DNA of 64,000 bases. Source: Streptomyces ferrugineus. Its GTDB lineage: Bacteria > Actinomycetota > Actinomycetes > Streptomycetales > Streptomycetaceae. The notes beneath the pieces are model-generated. The model did not search any database. It saw only the letters and a list, made by a program, of their open reading frames with translations, and was not told the DNA's origin. Position numbers and translations under genes: made by a program. Of the stretch, positions 31,189 to 43,508 are shown piece by piece (the first letter of the stretch is position 1; every line of letters begins with the position of its first letter). The stretch spans positions 8,717,001 through 8,781,000 of the forward strand of contig NZ_CP063373.1 of the NCBI RefSeq assembly GCF_015160855.1, in the 5' to 3' direction.

Positions 31189-34100
31189 TCAGCGCTGGGC
31201 CGCCACCCAGGCCGCGATCTGGCTGCGGTTGCTGAAGCCGAGCTTGCCGAGGATGCGTTCGACGTGGCCCTCGGCGGTGCGGCGGGAGATGACCAGGCGG
31301 TCGGCGATCTGCTGGTTGGCCAGCCCCTGGGCGACGAGTTCGGCGACCTCGCTCTCGCGGCGGGTGAGGCGGCAGCCGTGGGCGGGGGTGCGGCGGTCGT
31401 TCACCTTGCGGATGGCCGTGTCGTCGACGGCGTACTCGACGGCACGGGCGAGGTCGAGCGCGGCGCCGCTGTCGTACGCCCGCCCGTAGTCGGGTGGGCC
31501 GAGGGCCTGGCGCGCCCGGGTCTCGCTGTCGCGGCGGGTGGCCTTCAGGGACCGCGATCCCCAGCGGTCGCGGTCGACGGCGGTCCAGGTGCGGTCGGCG
31601 GCGCCGAGCAGCACGGCCGCGCGCTCGTGGGAACCGGTCTCGGTGGCGGTGCGGGCCAGCAGGTCGAGGGTGAGGGCGATGCCGGTGACGTCGTGCACGG
31701 CGAGCTTGAGGCGCAGGGCCTGGCGGGCGTGGTGTTCGGCCCGCTGCCAGTCGCCCCGCACGCTGTGGGCGAGGGCGAGCATCCGCAGGACGTAGGAGTG
31801 CACCCATTCCTCGCCGTGCCGTTCGCACATCCGGCGGGCCCGCTCGCAGACCTCGACGGCGCGCTCGGCCTCGCCCAGGAAGCCCAGGGCGCAGGCGAGT
31901 TCGACCTGGTCGAGGCCGTGCAGGCTGAGGTGCTGGCCGGGGACGGGGCCGCGGGCGACGGTGGCCTCGAAGTGCTTCAGCGCGGCCGGCAGGTCGTCCA
32001 TGAACAGGGTGATGACGCCGATGACGTACTCGGCGTGCGCGGCCTCCGCCGCGTCGCCGAGGTCCTGGGCCAGGAGGTGGGCCTCGCGGGCGAGGGCGAG
32101 GCCGACGGGGAGGGCGTGGGTGGCGGCGGCGAGGAGTCCGGCGATCCACAGGCCGCGGGCGCGTTCCCTGGTGGGTTCCGGATTGGCGGCCAGGGCGCGG
32201 TCGATCCAGTGGCGGCCCTCGCGCGGGGCGCCGCAGGCGTGCCAGTAGAACCACAGGGTGCCGGCCAGGCGCAGGCCGGTGAGGCGTTCGCCGGGGGTGG
32301 TGAGGCTGAAGTCGAGGGCGGTGCGCAGGTTGTCCTGGTCGGCGCGGAGCCGGGCCACGATCTCCCGCTGCCCCGGCCCGAACCAGGCCCGCTCGCAGCC
32401 GGTGGCCCGCCGCAGCATCCAGTCCCGCTGCCGGCACCGGGCGGCGGCCTCCTCGCCGGGCAGCCGGCGCAGCCGGTCCAGGCCGTAGTGGCGGAGGGTG
32501 TCGAGGAGGCGGTAGCGGGTGCCGTCGGGGCCGCACTCGCGGGAGAGGACGGACTTGTCGACGAGGCCCGCGACGGCGTCGAGTACGTCGTCAGGGTGGA
32601 TGCGGGGGGTGGGGGTCGTCTGGGTTTCCTCGCCCCCGCCGCCCCTACCCGTCCCATCCTCAAGGGGCTCCGCCCCTTCGACCCCGCCAGAGGGCTCCGC
32701 CCCCTGGACCCCCATCGGCCCTGAACGGGCCTCGTCCTCAAACGCCGGACGGGCTAGGTGAAGCCGACCGGCATCAAGAGGCGAAGCCCCCTCCGGGCGG
32801 GTGGGGGATGGGGACGGCGATGCCACGGCCTCAAACGCCGGACGGGCCAGGTGAAACCCACCCGCGTCAACAGACGAAGCCCCCTCCGGGCCAGTCAGGG
32901 ATGGAGACGGCCATGCCACAGCCTCAAACGCCGGACGGGCCAAATGAAACCCACCCCCGTCAACAGACGAAGCCCCCTCCGGGCCAGTCAGGGATGGAGA
33001 CGGCCATGCCACAGCCTCAAACGCCGGACGGGCCAAATGAAACCCACCCCCGTCAACAGACGAAGCCCCCTCCGGGCCAGTCAGGGATGGAGACGGCCAT
33101 GCCACAGCCTCAAACGCCGGACGGGCCAAATGAAACCCACCCCCGTCAACAGACGAAGCCCCCTCCGGGCCAGTCAGGGATGGAGACGGCCATGCCACAG
33201 CCTCAAACGCCGGACGGGCCAAATGAAACCCACCCGCGTCAACAGACGAAGCCCCATCCGGGCCGGTGAGGGATGAGGACGGCGATGCCGTGGCCTCGGA
33301 CGTCGGACGGGCTGAAGCCACCGCCTCCGCCGTCTCCAGATCGAAGCTGCCGGCCAGCACCGACAGCCGGGCCCACACCAACTGCTCGCGTTCGGTGCAC
33401 AGTTCGTGGCTCCAGTCGACCGCCGCGCGCAGGGTCTGGTGGCGGGGCAGGGCGGCGGGGCTGCCGCCGGTGAGCAGGCGGTAGCGGTCGTCGAGGCGGT
33501 CGAGGAGCCGGTCGACGTCGAGGACGCGCATGCGGACGGCGGCGAGTTCGATGGCGAGGGGCAGACCGTCGAGGCGTCGGCACAGGCGGGCGACGGCGGC
33601 GCGGTTGGCGGCGGTGAGGCGGAAGCCGGGGACGACCGCGGCGGCCCGGTCGGCGAAGAGGGCCAGGGCCGGATAGCCCTCGGGAGAGGACAGGTCGCCG
33701 TCGGGGTCGGGGACCGGCAGGGGCCGTACGTCCAGGAGGTGTTCCTCGGTCAGGCCCAGGCGGTGGCGGCTGGTGGCGAGGATGCGTACGCCGGTGGTGC
33801 CGTGCAGCAGGGCCGCGGCGAGTTCGGCGCAGGCCGGCAGCAGATGCTCGCAGTTGTCGATCAGCAGGAGCAGCCGACGGTCCCTCAGTTGCTCCACCAG
33901 CGCCTGGAGCGGCGGTCGCGCGGTGTGGTCGTGCAGGTCGAGCGCGTCGGCGACGGCGTGCGGGACGAGCGCCGGGTCGTCGAGACCGGAGAGGGGCGCG
34001 AAGCGCACGCCGTCGGGGAAGGTGCGCCGTACGCCGGCCGCGATGCGTGCGGCGAGGCGGGTCTTGCCGACGCCGCCTGGCCCGGTCAGCGTGACGAGCC

Positions 34101-34209
34101 GGGCCCTGGCCAACAGCTCGCGTCCGGCCGCGAGTTCGCCGCGCCGGTCGACGAAGCTGGTCGTCTCGACCGGCAGTCGCTGATCCCGTCGTGGCGCTGA
34201 TCCGCCCAT
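31189..34209 (-). CDS. AAA/NB-ARC LuxR-family regulator carrying an in-frame repeat array
   Basis: 1006 residues from an ATG at 34209, with GGAGG 11 bases upstream. The N-terminal NTPase (about 15-300) has Walker [12 protein letters not shown] and Walker [12 protein letters not shown] helical, TPR-like region (about 540-930) and a C-terminal LuxR helix-turn-helix (about 945-1003, [25 protein letters not shown]) follow. Family members are normally about 750-800 residues. The excess is a block at about residues 300-530 made of near-identical 31-residue units, placed between the NTPase and the helix [13 protein letters not shown]. The reading frame is kept throughout, so the protein is probably made. 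Its target genes are unknown. Confidence 0.87.
32628..33310. repeat. 93-bp tandem repeat array inside the LuxR regulator gene
   Basis: The string TCAAACGCCGGACGGGC recurs at 32739, 32831, 32924, 33017, 33110 and 33203, with a degenerate seventh copy near 33297. Spacing is 93 bp for the last four intervals and 92 for the first. Unit sequences are nearly identical in the centre and diverge at the ends. The outer 32628-32750 section (GGGGCTCCGCCCC, CTGAACGGGCCTCGTCCTC) matches a repeat type common between Streptomyces genes. On the coding strand each unit encodes [22 protein letters not shown] residues. Confidence 0.95.
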
Positions 34210-34467
34210 GCCCAGCCGTTCCTCCGGGGGTGTCGAGGGAACCGGGGAGCCGGGGAGGCGGCGGGTGCGCCGGTCCCCGCCTCGCCGCCGCTCCCACCGC
34301 TCCCCCCTTGCGCGGCTCACCACCCTTCCGCGGCCCCGCGCCGCCCCGCACGTCCGGATCACACCCCCGGGTGGACTTCACCGGCGACCGCTCCGCGCGC
34401 AGGCGCCCCGCGTACACTGCGCGGCTGATTTTCGGATGGTTCACGCCATCGACCATCCGGCCACCCT
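34210..34467. other. Gene-free region upstream of the carboxypeptidase
   Basis: The 355-base gap between the divergent regulator and carboxypeptidase genes shows no convincing coding frame. Besides the promoter at 34468-34496 it holds a 7-bp inverted repeat, CGGATGG (34433-34439) and CCATCCG (34454-34460), just upstream of the -35 box, which may be an operator. Confidence 0.4.
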
Positions 34468-36511: not shown

Positions 36512-37990
36512 TTATACGAACAGGCTCAACACCGCGGCCACCACGAACCCGGCCACCGACAGAACACTCTCCAGTACGGTCCACGTCTTCAACGTGTCAC
36601 GTTCGCTGATCCCGAAGTACTTGGCGACGATCCAGAAGCCGCCGTCGTTGACGTGCGAGGCGAAGATCGAGCCGGCCGAGATGGCCATGATGACGAGGGC
36701 GACGAAGGCCTGGGAGTGGTCGCCCCCGGTGAGCAGGGGGGCGACGATGCCGGCCGTCGTGACGATGGCGACCGTCGCCGAGCCCTGCGCCACCCGGAGC
36801 ACCACCGAGATCAGGTACGACAGCACGATGACCGGCAGACCGACGTCGTTGAAGGTGTCGGACAGGGCCTGCGCCACACCGCTGGCCTTGAGGACGGCGC
36901 CGAAGACACCGCCGGCGCCGACGACCAGGAGGATGTTGCCCACGGGCTTCAGCGACGACGTCGACACCGTCTCCAGGGACTTGCGGGACCAGCCCCGGCG
37001 GATGCCCAGCAGGTAGTAGGCGAGCAGCAGGGCGATCGTCAGGGCCACGAACGGGTTGCCGAAGAACTCGATGACCGAGCGGGTGGTGGAGGGGTCCAGC
37101 GCGATCGAGGAGAACGTCGCGGCCAGGATCAGCACCAGCGGCGTACCGATGATGCCGAGGACCGTGCCGAGCGGGACCGGCTTCTCCTGGGGCTCGACCC
37201 CGGCGGCCCGCTGCTCGTCGATGACCGACCGCTTCGCCTCGTCCGCCGCCTCGACCATGTCCTGCGGTACGGCGACGAAGATGCGCTTGCCGATCCAGGC
37301 GGAGAACACCCACGCGGCCAGCACCGCCGGGATGCCGCAGACGACGCCCATGAGGATGACCCAGCCCAGCTCGACGTGGAGCAGTCCGGCCGCGGCGACC
37401 GGGCCGGGGTGCGGGGGCAGGAAGGCGTGGGTCATCGACAGGCCCGCGAGCAGGGGCAGGCAGTACAGGAGCACGGACTTCCCGGAGCGCTTGGCGGCGG
37501 CGTACACGATCGGTGCGAGCACGAAGATGCCGACGTCGAAGAAGACCGGGATGCCGAAGATCAGGCCGGTCAGGCCCATCGCGAGGGGCGCTCTGCGCTC
37601 CCCGAAGAGGTGCAGCAGCCGGGAGGCCAGCACCTCGGCCCCGCCGCTGACTTCGAGGATCGCGCCGAGCATGGTGCCGAGTCCGATGATGATGGCGACA
37701 TGGCCGAGGATGCCGCCCATGCCGGACTCGATGGTGGACACGGCGTCGCTGCGCTGGACCGTGCCGAAGAGTTCGGTGACCGAGAGGCCGGCCATGAGGC
37801 CGACGGCTATGGAGACGGCGAGCAGGGCCACGAAGGGCTGCAGGCGCGTCTTGATGATGAGGAAGAGCAGCAGGGCGATACCGATGGCGGCGACGGTCAG
37901 GAGACCGGCCGTACCGTCGATCAGGAGGAGCAGTCCGCCGGTGTGGGGTGGGGTCTCGGGGGCGGCGGCCGCGGCGAGCGGATGGGACAT
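36512..37990 (-). CDS. GntP-family sugar-acid/H+ symporter
   Basis: 492 residues from an ATG at 37990, six bases after AGAGGA. About 12-14 hydrophobic helices are present, with family signatures HAFLPPHPGPVAAAGLL and a conserved C-terminal SATVAIVTTAGIVAPL segment. GntP transporters import gluconate and related sugar acids with protons. The gene is the last of a minus-strand run of PfkB kinase, IclR, RidA and GntP, suggesting that the imported compound is a gluconate-like acid, possibly an amino sugar acid. The actual substrate is inferred. Confidence 0.93.
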   Translation of the reverse strand: MSHPLAAAAAPETPPHTGGLLLLIDGTAGLLTVAAIGIALLLFLIIKTRLQPFVALLAVSIAVGLMAGLSVTELFGTVQRSDAVSTIESGMGGILGHVAIIIGLGTMLGAILEVSGGAEVLASRLLHLFGERRAPLAMGLTGLIFGIPVFFDVGIFVLAPIVYAAAKRSGKSVLLYCLPLLAGLSMTHAFLPPHPGPVAAAGLLHVELGWVILMGVVCGIPAVLAAWVFSAWIGKRIFVAVPQDMVEAADEAKRSVIDEQRAAGVEPQEKPVPLGTVLGIIGTPLVLILAATFSSIALDPSTTRSVIEFFGNPFVALTIALLLAYYLLGIRRGWSRKSLETVSTSSLKPVGNILLVVGAGGVFGAVLKASGVAQALSDTFNDVGLPVIVLSYLISVVLRVAQGSATVAIVTTAGIVAPLLTGGDHSQAFVALVIMAISAGSIFASHVNDGGFWIVAKYFGISERDTLKTWTVLESVLSVAGFVVAAVLSLFV

Positions 37991-38096
37991 AGGGGGTCCT
38001 CTGGGTAAGTACATCAAGCTTTCGGGCAGGGGGGATCGCGGCACGGCGCCCCGGTGGGCGCCGAGCCGTTGACGGCGTGCGGGAGTTGAGGAGGCG

Positions 38097-38507
38097 TCAG
38101 CCGAGTACGGCCAGCGCGTCGATCTCGATGAGCAGACCGGCGGGCAGACCGACGTACACGGTCGTGCGCGCGGCGGGCGGCTGGGTCAGCCCCTGCTCCT
38201 CGAAGTAGGTGTTGTAGATCTCGTTCATCTCGGCGAAGTGGGCGACGTCCGTCAGATAGACGCGGATCATCATCACGTCGTCCCAGGAGGCGCCGCCCTC
38301 CTCCAGGATCGCCTTGACGTTGGCGAGGGTCTGGAGGGTCTGCTCGCGCAGGGTGGGACCGGCGGGTGTCGGCGGCTGCCCCTCGACCGCCGGGAGGAAG
38401 CCGACCTGACCCGCGACCTGGAGGATGTTCCCCTTCTTCACTCCGTGCGAGAACTTGGCGGGCGGCGTGGTGTGGGTCTTCGGGGTGAGCGCGGTCTTCT
38501 CGGTCAT
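38097..38507 (-). CDS. ridA: RidA-family enamine/imine deaminase
   Basis: 136 residues, normal for the RidA/YjgF/UK114 family, with VAGQVGFLPAVEG, a TLQTLANVKAILEEGGASWDD helix and the C-terminal ARTTVYVGLPAGLLIEIDALA motif including the conserved arginine. RidA proteins hydrolyse reactive 2-aminoacrylate or imine intermediates released by PLP-dependent dehydratases. This fits the PLP deaminase encoded in the divergent half of the cluster. The gene overlaps the IclR stop by 4 bases. Confidence 0.93.
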   Translation of the reverse strand: MTEKTALTPKTHTTPPAKFSHGVKKGNILQVAGQVGFLPAVEGQPPTPAGPTLREQTLQTLANVKAILEEGGASWDDVMMIRVYLTDVAHFAEMNEIYNTYFEEQGLTQPPAARTTVYVGLPAGLLIEIDALAVLG

Positions 38508-39265
38508 TCGGTGCCCTTCGCTGAGGTTCTGCCGGAGTACTCGCCGCTGATGTCGTCCGCCGTACGGCGCACCAGCGGGAGCAGGGTGAGGAGTTCGTCG
38601 GCGGTGACGACGACGTTCGGCGCGGAGACCGACATCGCGGCGACGACGCGGCCGTCGGCGCCGCGGATCGGTGCGGCGACGCAGTTGATGGACTCCTCGT
38701 GGCCACCGAGGTCGGTGGCCCAGCCCTGTTCGCGCACCTTGTCCAACTCCTTCAGGAAAGCGGGTGCGTTGGGGGTGGAACGGGCCGTGTACATGGGGTA
38801 GTCGAGCTTGTCGGTGAGGGCGCGGCGCTCGTGCTCGGGCAGATCGGCGAGCAGCAGCTTGGCCACGGCGGCGACCGTGATGGCCACCGGTTTGCCGATC
38901 CGGGAGTACATCCGCACCGGGTAGCGGCTCTCGACCTTGTCGATGTACAGCACCTCGTCCTCCTCGTACACGGCGAGGTGCACGGTGTGTCCGCACTGCT
39001 CGTTGAGGCGTACGAGGTGGGGGTGGGCGATCTCGCGGATGTCGAGGTTCTCCATCGCCTCCTGGGCGAGGGCGATCAGGCGGGCGCCGAGGCGGTAGCG
39101 CTGGTCGGACTGGCGGTAGACCATGCCGTGCTCGTGCAGGGTGCGCAGCAGGCGCAGGGCCGTGGACTTGTGGACGCCCAGGCGGTCGGCGACCTGGCCC
39201 AGGTCGGCGGGGCCCTCGGCGAGCAGCGGCAGGATGCTGAGCGCGCGGTCGACGGTCTGGCTCAT
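38504..39265 (-). CDS. IclR-family transcriptional regulator
   Basis: 253 residues from an ATG at 39265 with a GGAGG ribosome site ten bases upstream. An N-terminal winged helix (about 1-60, LGQVADRLGVHKSTALRLLRTL) and a C-terminal effector domain (about 75-245, SINCVAAPIRGADGRVVAAMSVSAP) are intact. The start overlaps the PfkB stop by 4 bases and the end overlaps ridA by 4 bases, so the regulator is made with the enzymes. The palindrome at 40545-40561 in front of the divergent deaminase is a plausible target. Confidence 0.95.
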   Translation of the reverse strand: MSQTVDRALSILPLLAEGPADLGQVADRLGVHKSTALRLLRTLHEHGMVYRQSDQRYRLGARLIALAQEAMENLDIREIAHPHLVRLNEQCGHTVHLAVYEEDEVLYIDKVESRYPVRMYSRIGKPVAITVAAVAKLLLADLPEHERRALTDKLDYPMYTARSTPNAPAFLKELDKVREQGWATDLGGHEESINCVAAPIRGADGRVVAAMSVSAPNVVVTADELLTLLPLVRRTADDISGEYSGRTSAKGTE

Positions 39266-40446
39266 GGCGTACGTACCTCCTCGTCGGCCCGTTGTGCGGC
39301 TTGCGTCCAGCCGGGGCCGAGTCGAAGTTTCTCCCACCCGGCGTCGTCGAGGGCGGCCAGGCGGTCGGCGGTGTCGTGGGAGGGGGGTGCGGCGAGGTCG
39401 CCGGGGGCGGTGAGGGTGGCGGCGGCCCAGAGGTGGGCGTGGCGGAGGCGGTCCCGGATGGGCAGGGCGCGGAGGGTGGCGGAGAGGAAGCCTGCGGCGA
39501 AGGCGTCGCCTGCGCCGACGGTTGCTACGACATCTACGGTCAGGGCGGGGACGAAGGTACTCGACGCTTCGGCTGGGCGGGGGTGGGTGTCGCTCGCCCG
39601 CGCTGAGGGGGTGCCGCCTCTCTGTGGGACGGGTGCCGCCCCAGCGGCACGACTGCCCGCAGCTTGAGCTGGGCGGCTGGGCCGAACGCCACCCGCAGCC
39701 GACACAAACGCCGTAGCCCCCACTCCCCCCTGCTTCACCACCAGCACTCCCGGCTCGGGCAACGCCGCCCGCACCGCCTCCGGTCCCCCCGCAATCCCCC
39801 ACGCGTCCTCGGCCTCGTCCTCCCCCACGAACACGACATCAGCCCCGCGCGCCAGTTCCAGCAGCACCCCCGGCCCGTCGCCGTCTCCCCAGAGCCCCGC
39901 CCGGTAGTTGACGTCGAACGAGACCATCGGGCGCCCCGCCCCCGCCCCCGCCCCCGTCAGCTCCCGCATCAACCCCAGGCACCCTTCCGACAACGCCGCC
40001 GTGATCCCCGACAGATGCAGCACCCGACCCGAACGCGCCGCGCTCAGGTCCACGTCCTCCACGGACATCCCGGACGCCGCCGAACCCGCCCGGTAGTACG
40101 CCACCTCATGCGCGTCCGTGGCCCGGTCCCCGGCCGTGCGGAAGTACACCCCCGTCGGCCGTACCGGATCCCGCCGCACGGCCGAGACATCGACGCCGTA
40201 CCCCGCGATCGCCTCGACGAGATGGTCGCCGAACCCGTCGGTGCCGACGCGGCTGACCCACCTCGCGCGGTGGCCGGCGGCAGCCAGCGCGCACGCGACG
40301 TTGGATTCCGCGCCGCCGATCGCCCGCTCGAACGACGGCACATCGGCGAGGCGCCCGGGACGTGTGGGCAGGAACGTGACCATGGACTCGCCGAGCGCGA
40401 CAACGTCCACGACGTCGAGGGCATTGCAGGGTCCGGTGACAGTCAC
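39262..40446 (-). CDS. PfkB-family sugar kinase, 2-keto-3-deoxygluconate kinase-like, with repeat insertion
   Basis: 394 residues. The PfkB signatures are present: VDVVALGESMVTFLPTR at the start, the IGGAESNVACALAAAGH motif (about 42-60) and the C-terminal DVVATVGAGDAFAAGFL motif with catalytic Asp. Similarity is greatest to KDG kinases, which make KDPG. Relatives are about 310-340 residues. The excess is a low-complexity block at about residues 250-300 (SRPAQAAGSRAAGAAPVP) encoded by an intergenic-type repeat inserted just before the ATP-site motif. The frame is intact and the insertion probably sits in a surface loop. Confidence 0.9.
   Translation of the reverse strand: MTVTGPCNALDVVDVVALGESMVTFLPTRPGRLADVPSFERAIGGAESNVACALAAAGHRARWVSRVGTDGFGDHLVEAIAGYGVDVSAVRRDPVRPTGVYFRTAGDRATDAHEVAYYRAGSAASGMSVEDVDLSAARSGRVLHLSGITAALSEGCLGLMRELTGAGAGAGRPMVSFDVNYRAGLWGDGDGPGVLLELARGADVVFVGEDEAEDAWGIAGGPEAVRAALPEPGVLVVKQGGVGATAFVSAAGGVRPSRPAQAAGSRAAGAAPVPQRGGTPSARASDTHPRPAEASSTFVPALTVDVVATVGAGDAFAAGFLSATLRALPIRDRLRHAHLWAAATLTAPGDLAAPPSHDTADRLAALDDAGWEKLRLGPGWTQAAQRADEEVRTP
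39555..39690. repeat. Intergenic-type repeat inserted in the pfkB-like gene
   Basis: This stretch contains GGTGCCGCCCCAGCGGCAC (39633-39651), in which GTGCCGC and GCGGCAC form a hairpin, plus flanking GCTGAGGGGGTGCCGCC and CTGCCCGCAGCTTGAGCTG. From memory this resembles a repeat family frequent between genes in Streptomyces genomes. It corresponds exactly to the extra residues in the kinase. Confidence 0.65.
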
Positions 40447-40544
40447 GATCGTCGTAGCTCCTCGGCGCTTTCGCGGGCCGCGGCTTTCGTTGACCCGCGG
40501 TTGGCCGAGATGTTAGACAGCAGCAAGCGATATACGCAATGAGC

Positions 40545-40561
40545 GTTGCAGAAACTGCAAC
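40545..40561. promoter_or_regulatory. Palindrome in the divergent catabolic promoter, likely IclR operator
   Basis: GTTGCAGAAACTGCAAC has perfect 7-bp arms and a 3-base spacer, with an additional half-site GCAAT at 40536-40540. It lies 21 bases upstream of the deaminase ATG, between it and the kinase gene. Such T-G-C-A-rich palindromes are typical IclR-family sites. Confidence 0.6.
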
Positions 40562-40582
40562 CTCGCAGATCAGGGAGGTTCC

Positions 40583-41860
40583 ATGAGCAACGAGGCGCTC
40601 GCCCGCCTGGCCGAGGAACGCATCGACCACCGCTTCAAGGGCCTCCCCCCGGACGCCGACGGCCTGACCGTCGCCGAGCTGTCCGCCCAGCGCCGCAACC
40701 TTTTCACCGGCGGCTTCGCCACCCCCGTGCTCGCCCTCTCCGCCGAGCGCCTGGAGCACAACCTCGACCTCATGGAGACGTACGCCGCCCGCCACGGCCT
40801 CGCCTTCGCCCCGCACGGCAAGACGTCCATGGCCCCGCAGCTCTTCCAGCGGCAGATCGAGCACGGCGCGTGGGGCATCACGCTCGCGGTACCGCACCAG
40901 GTGCGGGTGGCACGGGCGTACGGCATCGAGCGCGTCTTCCTCGCGAACGAGCTCGTGGACGCCGCCGCCCTGCGGTGGATCGCCGGTGAGCTGGCGGCCG
41001 ACCCCGCCTTCCGTCTCGTCTGTTACGTCGACTCCGTGCGGGGCGTGGAGCTGATGGACGCCGCCCTGCGAGGCGCCGGCGCCACCCGGCCGCTGGACGT
41101 CGTCGTGGAGCTGGCCGGCGGCGAGGGCGCCCGCACCGGGGTCCGCACCGAGGCCGAGTGCGCCACCGTCGCGGACGCGGTGGCCGCCGTGCCGACGCTG
41201 CGGCTGGTCGGTGTCGCCGGGTACGAGGGCGAGGTGCCGCAGCCGAACCCCGAGCGGGTGCACGCCTATCTGCGGCGGCTCGTCGCGCTCGCCGCCGACT
41301 TCGACAAGGCGGGGCGGTTCGCGGGGCTCGGTCTCGACGAGATCATCGTCAGCGCCGGCGGCAGCGCCTGGTTCGACGCGGTGGCGGACGTCTTCGCCGA
41401 GATCCCCGAACTGTCCCTGCCCGTGCTGAAGTTGCTGCGCTCCGGCGCCTACGTCTCGCACGACGATGGCCACTACCGCAAGCTGACCCCCTTCAACCGG
41501 GTCCCGCAGGAGGGCGCCCTCGAACCCGCCTTCCGGCTGTGGGCCCAGGTCGTCTCCCGCCCCTCCCCCGAGCAGGCCTTCGTCAACGCGGGCAAGCGGG
41601 ACGCGGCCTACGACCTCGATCTGCCGTTCGCCCAGGTGGTCCGCCGGGACGGGGCCGAGCGCCCGGCCACCGGCGTCTCGGTGACCGCCCTGTCCGACCA
41701 GCACGCGTGGCTGGCGACGACCGGGGAGGCGGACCTGGAGGTCGGGGACTGGCTCGGGATGGGGTTGTCCCACCCGTGCACGTCGTTCGACAAGTGGCAG
41801 CTGATCCCGGTCACACAGGCGGACGGGACGGTCGTCGACTACATCCGCACGTACTTCTAG
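40583..41860 (+). CDS. PLP-dependent amino-acid deaminase / D-threonine-aldolase-fold enzyme
   Basis: 425 residues with an AGGGAGG ribosome site. An alanine-racemase-type barrel (about 45-290) carries the PLP lysine K80 in [13 protein letters not shown]-terminal beta domain contains [10 protein letters not shown], with H397 and C399 placed like the zinc ligands of eukaryotic-type D-serine dehydratase. Enzymes of this fold dehydrate or deaminate D-3-hydroxyamino acids; D-glucosaminate is a chemically similar substrate. Next to a KDG kinase, sugar-acid permease and RidA, conversion of an amino sugar acid to 2-keto-3-deoxygluconate is a reasonable reading, but substrate is not proved. Confidence 0.88.
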
Positions 41861-41876
41861 CCGAGGGGTGGCGGTC

Positions 41877-43508
41877 GTGGAAGAGCTTGTCATCCGGGAC
41901 GCGGAGGTCGTGGACGGCAGTGGTGGTCCGTCCTACCGCGCCGATGTGGTGGTGGACGGCGGCCGGATCGTGTCGATCGTGCGGGAGGCGGCCGCCGCCG
42001 GCTGCCAACGGCCGAAGGCGCGGCGCGAGTTGGACGCCGAGGGCCTCGTCCTGTCCCCCGGCTTCATCGACATGCACGCCCACAGCGATCTGGCGCTGCT
42101 GCGGGACCCCGACCACAGCGCGAAGGCCGCGCAGGGGGTCACCCTCGAAGTCATCGGCCAGGACGGGCTGTCGTACGCCCCCGTCGACGACCGCACCCTA
42201 GCCGAGGTGCGCCGCGCCATCACCGGCTGGAACGGCTCCGGCGACGACATCGACTTCGACTGGCGGACGGTGGGCGAGTACCTGGACCGTCTCGACGCCG
42301 GCTTCGAGGGCCGGGGCATCGCCGTGAACGCGGCGTACCTCATCCCGCAGGGCACGGTCCGCGCGCTCGCCGTGGGCTGGGAGGACCGGGAGGCCACGCC
42401 GGACGAGCTCGACCGGATGCGGCGGCTGGTCGCGGAGGGGCTCGAGCAGGGCGCGGTCGGACTGTCGTCGGGGCTGACGTACACGCCGGGCATGTACGCC
42501 AAGGACGCCGAGCTGACCGAGCTGTGCCGGGTGGTGGCGCGGTACGGCGGCTACTACTGCCCGCACCACCGCTCCTACGGGGCCGGGGCCCTGGAGGCGT
42601 ACGCGGAGATGGTGGCCCTGACCGGGGAGGCGGGCTGTGCGCTCCATCTGGCCCACGCCACCATGAACTTCGGCGTGAACAAGGGGCGGGCGCCGGAGCT
42701 GCTGTCCCTGCTGGACAAGGCGCTCGCCGAAGGGGCCGACATCAGCCTGGACACCTACCCCTACACCCCCGGCTGCACGACCCTGGTCGCCATGCTGCCG
42801 AGCTGGGCGAGCGAGGGCGGCCCCGAGGCGGTGCTGGCCCGGCTGGCGGACGACGACACCGCCGAGCGCATCCGGCACCACATGGAGGTCGTCGGCGCCG
42901 ACGGCTGCCACGGGGTGCCCATCGAGTGGGACACGATCGAGATCTCGGGCGTGAGCGACCCGGCGCTCGGGGACTTCGTCGGCCGTACGATCCGGCAGTC
43001 CGCGGACGCGCGGGGCGAGGCCCCCTGGGTGACCGCGCGCCGGCTGCTCCGTCAGGACCGGCTGGGCTCGACGATCCTCCAGCACGTCGGCCACGAGGAG
43101 AACGTCCGCACGATCATGCGGCACCGCGTCCACACGGGCGGCTCGGACGGCATCCTGCAGGGCACGAAGCCGCATCCGCGGGCGTACGGCACGTTCCCGC
43201 ACTACCTCGGCCGCTATGTACGGGAGTTGGGGGTGCTGTCCCTGGAGGAGTGCGTGGCCCATCTGACCTCGCGCCCGGCGGCGCGGCTGCGGCTGCCGGA
43301 CCGGGGGCTGGTGCGCGAGGGCTACCGGGCGGACCTGGTGCTGTTCGACCCGGAGACGGTAGCGGCGGGCTCCTCGTTCGAGCAGCCGCGCACGCTACCG
43401 ACAGGCGTCCCGTACGTCCTGATCGACGGCCGTTTCGTGATCGAGGACGGCCGCCGGACGGACGTGCTGGCGGGACGGGCGGTCCGCAGAACCGCGTATC
43501 CGGCGTAG
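41877..43508 (+). CDS. N-acyl-D-amino-acid deacylase family amidohydrolase
   Basis: 543 residues from a GTG at 41877, eight bases after GAGGGG; a GTG at 41868 lacks spacing for this site. The amidohydrolase metal motif [12 protein letters not shown] has H67 and H69. Downstream are HHRSYG and [11 protein letters not shown], plus [11 protein letters not shown] near the end supplying the catalytic aspartate. In characterised D-aminoacylases a cysteine in a GNCG motif binds zinc; here the equivalent is GQDG, so the metal site differs. It probably removes an N-acyl group before the deaminase acts; the two genes are 16 bases apart. Confidence 0.9.

Follow-up and report, generated by a model that had tools for sequence, protein, structure and literature searches.

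A complete route for the catabolism of N-acetylglucosaminate (GlcNAc1A) has been reported in Gammaproteobacteria and one betaproteobacterium (PMC9537276, 2022). According to that report, deacetylation, deamination and phosphorylation of GlcNAc1A follow one another in this order in Pseudoalteromonas, and the marine GH20 enzyme OngA frees GlcNAc1A from GlcNAc-GlcNAc1A. Term searches of the main text of PMC9537276 and PMC12017989 returned no mention of Actinobacteria or Streptomyces. Here, a 64,000-nucleotide stretch of the Streptomyces ferrugineus genome (9.96 Mb, single contig), referred to as the window, was analysed, and six genes at positions 36512-43508 were found to form a divergent cluster that is quite probably the catabolic core of an IclR regulon for an N-acetylated amino-sugar acid, most likely GlcNAc1A from chitin oxidised by lytic polysaccharide monooxygenases (LPMOs). 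Streptomyces are classic soil degraders of chitin, and no description of an actinobacterial version of the route, or of Streptomyces use of oxidised chitin ends, was found in the titles and abstract openings of the literature searched.

Open reading frame calling together with Pfam and NCBIfam scans placed a PfkB kinase, an IclR regulator, RidA and a GntP permease on the minus strand, and a D-serine-dehydratase-type pyridoxal phosphate (PLP) enzyme and an amidohydrolase (the deacylase) on the plus strand, each attaining its Pfam gathering score. The features of the cluster are as follows, where KDG is 2-keto-3-deoxygluconate:

36512-38044, minus strand: GntP-family sugar-acid:H+ symporter, the probable importer (Pfam GntP_permease 3.8e-130)
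38097-38507, minus strand: RidA, imine/enamine deaminase family (Pfam Ribonuc_L-PSP 2.8e-24); its start overlaps the IclR stop
38504-39265, minus strand: IclR-family regulator (Pfam IclR_C 3.6e-44); its presence tracks the operator
39262-40446, minus strand: PfkB-family kinase, probable KDG kinase (Pfam PfkB 1.6e-43)
40490-40519, plus strand: promoter-like pair TTGACC ... TTAGACA, conserved ahead of the dehydratase and deacylase genes, read by eye from nine aligned same-genus intergenic regions
40536-40561, plus strand: predicted IclR operator GCAATGAGCGTTGCAGAAACTGCAAC, with the core palindrome GTTGCA-N5-TGCAAC at 40545-40561
40583-41860, plus strand: fold-type III PLP dehydratase (D-serine-dehydratase type), probable D-glucosaminate dehydratase (Pfam D-ser_dehydrat 3.2e-20)
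41868-43508, plus strand: D-aminoacylase-fold amidohydrolase of the 'GQDG' subfamily, probable GlcNAc1A deacetylase (Pfam Amidohydro_3 1.3e-59)

The PfkB and IclR genes overlap by 4 bases, as do the IclR and RidA genes, and the dehydratase and deacylase genes are 7 bp apart. Gene order is identical in the window and eight other same-genus genomes, and in 7 of these 9 GntP is within reach; the dehydratase and deacylase share 71-94% identity across the eight other loci. Of 150 same-genus genomes, 143 contain a match to the deacylase at 64% identity or more (three partial), and 149 contain some match. Among a set of 80 named loci, those of Streptomyces (L280, L289 and others) and one of Kitasatospora (L296) are arranged as in the window. 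The arrangement is not due to chance. This six-gene divergent cluster had been proposed in a first-pass annotation, along with a GntP sugar-acid permease, a PLP deaminase with D-serine-dehydratase-like zinc residues, and the lack of an accompanying 2-keto-3-deoxy-6-phosphogluconate (KDPG) aldolase, and all of these points were borne out. GntP passed the TIGR00791 cut-off (392.2 vs 292.75), with the DsdX and gluconate equivalog models scoring below theirs, and its start, judged by eye, is likely to be an ATG inside the frame, near 37990. In the dehydratase, K80 of the HGKT motif and the H397/C399 pair of SHPC are kept in 63/63 aligned rows. Two PF01081 (KDPG aldolase) matches are located elsewhere in the S. 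ferrugineus genome, and one of these is preceded by a near-perfect operator.

In the proposed route, an exported lactonase encoded elsewhere would open the 1,5-lactone, GntP would import the resulting acid, the deacylase would release acetate to give glucosaminate, and the PLP/metal dehydratase would remove ammonia to give KDG, with RidA clearing the imine. KDG would be phosphorylated to KDPG by the PfkB kinase and then split into pyruvate and glyceraldehyde 3-phosphate by a KDPG aldolase, also encoded elsewhere. The IclR protein would bind the sequence GCAAY-N4-GTTGC-N7-GCAAY just downstream of the dehydratase promoter-like pair, and would most simply be a repressor relieved by KDG. Import, deacylation, deamination to KDG and phosphorylation to KDPG were the steps suggested by the first-pass annotation; gene content fits all four, and genomic context adds to them an aldolase, a GH20 fusion, NagB and ROK-kinase neighbours in relatives, and a co-regulated lactonase. 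LPMO action is the source of the acid that we infer, and four LPMO_10 matches are present in the S. ferrugineus genome, none of them next to the cluster.

The three half-sites of the predicted operator were derived from the nine aligned intergenic regions. With up to one mismatch allowed, 36 of the 39 loci with an IclR match carry the pattern no more than 450 bp from the start of the dehydratase or the deacylase, compared with 0 of the 17 loci lacking such a match, and nowhere in these loci does it occur outside that zone (Fisher p 1.2e-11, which overstates independence as the loci are related). Exact sites were present in 49 of the 61 named loci with IclR and in 1 of the 19 without, the single case (L295) ending at a contig edge. 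At the genus level, 141 of 150 genomes contain an exact site, compared with 4 of 150 for a reversed control pattern. The aldolase lies inside the cluster in the f3 family; there, 30 of 201 genomes have operator sites, and the cluster accounts for 20 of the 32 sites listed. Of those away from it, such as G652:C19:270872, some look well formed and may mark further members of the regulon.

Sites away from a deacylase orthologue were read in the same genus (53 sites; loci L181, L184-L195 and L198-L237), and 31 were located before a KDPG aldolase, 11 before a PF10282-type lactonase (Pfam was run on three of the 11), 3 were dehydratase promoters and 8 were elsewhere. The 31 aldolase-linked sites are 33-128 bp upstream of a gene resembling the S. 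ferrugineus aldolase gene at 2232174-2232803. At the aldolase and lactonase sites, position 15 is a purine in 42/42 and position 21 a pyrimidine in 41/42, though both are free in the pattern. The S. ferrugineus genome itself contains exactly three sites at up to one mismatch, at the window cluster (no mismatch), 31 bp upstream of the aldolase (one mismatch) and 70 bp upstream of the lactonase (one mismatch). This aldolase passed TIGR01182 (eda; 252.3 vs 156.05) and not the cut-off of the KDPGal model, which favours the gluco series. The lactonase matches PF10282 (7.2e-111) and has a twin-arginine-like start by eye only; a relative of it matches the periplasmic gluconolactonase PpgL (6igb), ranked below 3hfq. 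PMC12017989 describes the lactone produced by LPMOs as being in equilibrium with the acid, so co-regulation of an exported lactonase would be expected of the pathway. Separately, in L202, L223 and L227 the operator pattern occurs with other letters at positions 15 and 21, between genes that look by eye like a regulator and an aldehyde dehydrogenase, and these sites may belong to a related regulator.

Gene neighbourhoods in relatives bring further pathway functions into the cluster. A KDPG aldolase match was present in 35 of the 80 named loci, in 21/21 loci of the f3 family (picked as best deacylase matches) and in 10/23 of the f8 family; it was confirmed by Pfam in L049, it is fused to the kinase in L051 (Pfam), and kinase and aldolase matches stand side by side in L133-L135. 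The deacylase is in frame with a GH20 hexosaminidase in L053 and in 14 of the 80 named loci, these 14 being from Microbacterium or other Microbacteriaceae (including M. aerolatum, M. paraoxydans, M. maritypicum and M. oxydans). GH20 was identified by Pfam in L053 (3.1e-90) and, in the 14, from sequence similarity together with a GGDE motif. A dehydratase match lies upstream in 12 of the 14, and past the fused GH20 are matches to a ROK regulator, a ROK kinase and NagB (in L053, NagB passes its NCBIfam cut-off and the ROK kinase passes none). Overall, 20 of the 80 named loci have a GH20 match. GH20 adjoins loci with kinase and aldolase in L260, L263, Arthrobacter horti (L276) and A. psychrochitiniphilus (L307), with ABC matches also adjoining the full cluster in the two Arthrobacter species, and L127 has a weaker GH20 match (6.2e-8), a fucosidase and a ROK kinase near the dehydratase. 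Together, the aldolase in relatives' clusters, the GH20 fusion with its ROK kinase and NagB neighbours, and the operator at pathway genes favour an amino-sugar acid over D-amino acids. In other relatives (L124, L129 and L131), sets of RidA, dehydratase and deacylase without kinase or aldolase matches stand beside SIS-domain, RpiR, BadF-kinase or GH9 genes (Pfam was run on the L124 and L129 neighbourhoods), a hint of connections with other routes of amino-sugar metabolism.

The Pfam score and the K, H and C residues place the dehydratase in the PF14031 class, and it matches 3gwq at 2.3e-81 (277 bits). The best solved relative of the kinase is the KDG kinase 1v19 (4.5e-39), the top NCBIfam model for the IclR protein is KdgR (below its cut-off), and a RidA match is present in 77 of the 80 named loci. 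The AlphaFold model of the deacylase (pLDDT 93.5) has 3gip, 9g5m, 1m7j and 9kb1 as its closest folds. Several observations concern relatives of the two enzymes. A lone dehydratase, 50% and 47% identical to that of the window, is found among housekeeping-like genes (by eye) in L046 and L047, from two genomes of the f3 family, with no deacylase or kinase match around it. The structure 3gwq groups with OngC, and its Cupriavidus campinensis sister (L164) is close to an OngB-like gene (53% identity); both may be glucosaminate dehydratases. Klebsiella pneumoniae 9g5m/9gv8, named an N-acyl-D-amino-acid deacylase, shares residues S290, S291, S292 and Q298 with PpOngB and falls beside OngB in the tree; instead of a D-aminoacylase, it may be a deacetylase of GlcNAc1A. 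Deacylases with about 37-40% identity to that of the window are encoded on haloarchaeal plasmids, for example in Natrinema caseinilyticum (L163), where no sugar kinase or dehydratase is annotated within 9 kb of the deacylase.

The cluster was compared with reference ong clusters of Pseudoalteromonas (L158 and L159, verified against PpOngB at 822.9 bits). The first-pass annotation had likened the locus to the marine chitin-oxidative order, and the likeness holds for the enzyme classes and the predicted reactions; by identities and trees, the cluster is an analogue and not a copy. Identity to L158/L159 is about 28% for the deacylase, 32% for the dehydratase, 24% for the kinase and 27% for RidA, and it is at most 35% to two further ong-like loci. 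In the phylogenetic comparison suggested in that annotation, the deaminase does not group with OngC, nor the deacylase with OngB. In the deacylase tree, the actinobacterial enzymes are separate from a group that contains OngB, AfDam, 9g5m and the deacylase of Cupriavidus. Approximately unbiased (AU) tests, in which long branches were flagged, rejected a clade of the deacylase with OngB (p 8.2e-5 for the narrow group; 1.9e-43 for the widened group) and of the dehydratase with OngC (p 1.9e-46 and 1.4e-4, narrow; 6.5e-5, widened), the widened groups having been chosen once the trees had been inspected. Horizontal transfer of the marine ong cluster would account for the shared deacylase, PLP deaminase, RidA and sugar kinase classes, yet these identities and tests, together with the differing transporter and regulator families, make it barely credible. 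The characterised D-aminoacylase AfDam is nearer OngB than the window deacylase is, so the simplest reading is that the two clusters were assembled separately from a common toolkit. The evidence leans towards Actinobacteria having evolved oxidised-chitin catabolism independently of ong, with a deacylase subfamily carrying Asp in place of the zinc Cys, one IclR regulon in which a conserved three-half-site operator connects the cluster with an exported aldonolactonase and a KDPG aldolase encoded far away, near-universal presence in Streptomyces, and fusion of the deacetylase to a feeding hexosaminidase in Microbacterium.

Several results weigh against GlcNAc1A as the substrate or against the proposed regulon. 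Relative to PpOngB, the deacylase has C97 replaced by D (D99), K254 by T (T265), E226 by Y (Y237), S290 by G, S291 by C and S292 by T, and a long extra loop is inserted after residue 294, so that PpOngB Q298 is not alignable. PMC12017989 describes K254, S291 and the metal ligands as strictly conserved in the OngB-like and both D-aminoacylase-like types. In the comparison with a characterised deacetylase proposed by the first-pass annotation, sequence by itself does not prove the substrate, as the active site differs from OngB and known D-aminoacylases alike: the Cys zinc ligand and carboxylate-binding Lys of AfDam are missing (residue comparison), and BbDam also has them, as stated in PMC12017989. 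These differences are real evidence against naming the enzyme an OngB, and with the zinc cysteine and carboxylate-binding lysine gone, the substrate assignment rests on context. The dehydratase tree places OngC with 3gwq and the Cupriavidus enzyme, apart from the actinobacterial enzymes, and the best NCBIfam match of the kinase, the KDG kinase equivalog, scores 166.6, below its cut-off of 400. No LPMO or GH20 match was found in the nine same-genus loci, in which chitinases were not searched for, and no dehydratase match was called in two of the 14 fusion loci (L251 and L256). The operator is missing from 3 of the 39 loci with IclR (L051, L133 and L135), 12 of the 61 named loci with IclR have no exact site, and 12 of the 32 listed f3 sites are away from the cluster. 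In the S. ferrugineus genome, three matches are likewise obtained with the reversed control pattern when one mismatch is allowed, and therefore only the location of the operator sites is telling. Finally, a dehydratase or deacylase occurs with RidA and IclR, without a sugar kinase, beside amino-acid or peptide ABC genes in L165, L166 and L171.

These kinase-free sets would suit catabolism of N-acyl-D-amino acids, in which D-serine or D-threonine would be released by the deacylase and then deaminated by the PLP enzyme, with the kinase serving some other process. Both enzymes fall in D-amino-acid enzyme families, and OngC itself accepts D-Ser and D-Thr according to PMC9537276. This explanation is nevertheless quite unlikely, as it leaves the KDG-type kinase and the KDPG aldolase without an evident role although these are in the same operon or under the same operator, and the GH20 fusion and co-regulated lactonase suit a sugar acid better. 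The same chemistry acting on another amino-sugar acid, whether N-acetylgalactosaminate, a different N-acyl glucosaminate or an acid that derives not from chitin but from sugars of the cell wall or of antibiotics, follows an identical sugar-acid logic and would be in keeping with a deacylase substrate site unlike that of OngB and with the SIS, RpiR, BadF-kinase, GH9 or fucosidase genes near some relatives (L124, L127 and L129). It is also unlikely, since the aldolase matches eda above its cut-off and not the KDPGal model, and the GH20 and NagB neighbours indicate GlcNAc.

If GlcNAc1A is the substrate, soil actinobacteria such as Streptomyces would consume the oxidised sugar ends left by chitin-cutting enzymes, and the cluster, operator and regulon would be a complete, directly testable soil counterpart to the marine route. 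They would also represent a natural sensor for oxidised chitin and an instance of D-amino-acid enzymes being assembled convergently into a catabolic pathway. Elsewhere in the window, at 32736-33312, a 93-bp unit is repeated 6.2 times (93% match) within a regulator-like frame of 1057 amino acids (31189-34362, minus strand), whose protein would bear a repeated 31-residue block.

The Salmonella D-glucosaminate-6-phosphate (dga) route has the KDPG endpoint in common with the proposed pathway, and is set apart by uptake and phosphorylation through the phosphotransferase system as its first step and by a different ammonia-lyase. The structure 3gwq, labelled a D-serine deaminase, shares the PLP lysine and the His/Cys pair with the window dehydratase, but belongs to another branch of the tree. 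Unlike the D-aminoacylase AfDam (1m7j) and the N-acyl-D-glutamate deacylase BbDam (3gip), the window deacylase has relatives whose operons hold a KDG kinase and a KDPG aldolase. The Cys/His/His zinc site and GlcNAc1A-binding residues described for the GlcNAc1A deacetylase PpOngB (9kb1; PMC12017989) do not recur in it. The closest system is the ong cluster of Pseudoalteromonas prydzensis ACAM 620 (OngB, OngC, OngD, KdgK and OngA, as described in PMC9537276), with which the window cluster appears to share the order of deacetylation, deamination and phosphorylation, as well as the RidA and sugar kinase classes. The ong cluster has an RpiR regulator and an SSS symporter, whereas the window cluster has IclR and GntP, and the deacylase and dehydratase of the two come from separate branches. 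The GH20 hexosaminidase is inside the ong cluster, and is a fusion partner or neighbour in only some relatives of the window type, while in Streptomyces the aldolase and lactonase are located elsewhere and linked to the cluster by the operator.

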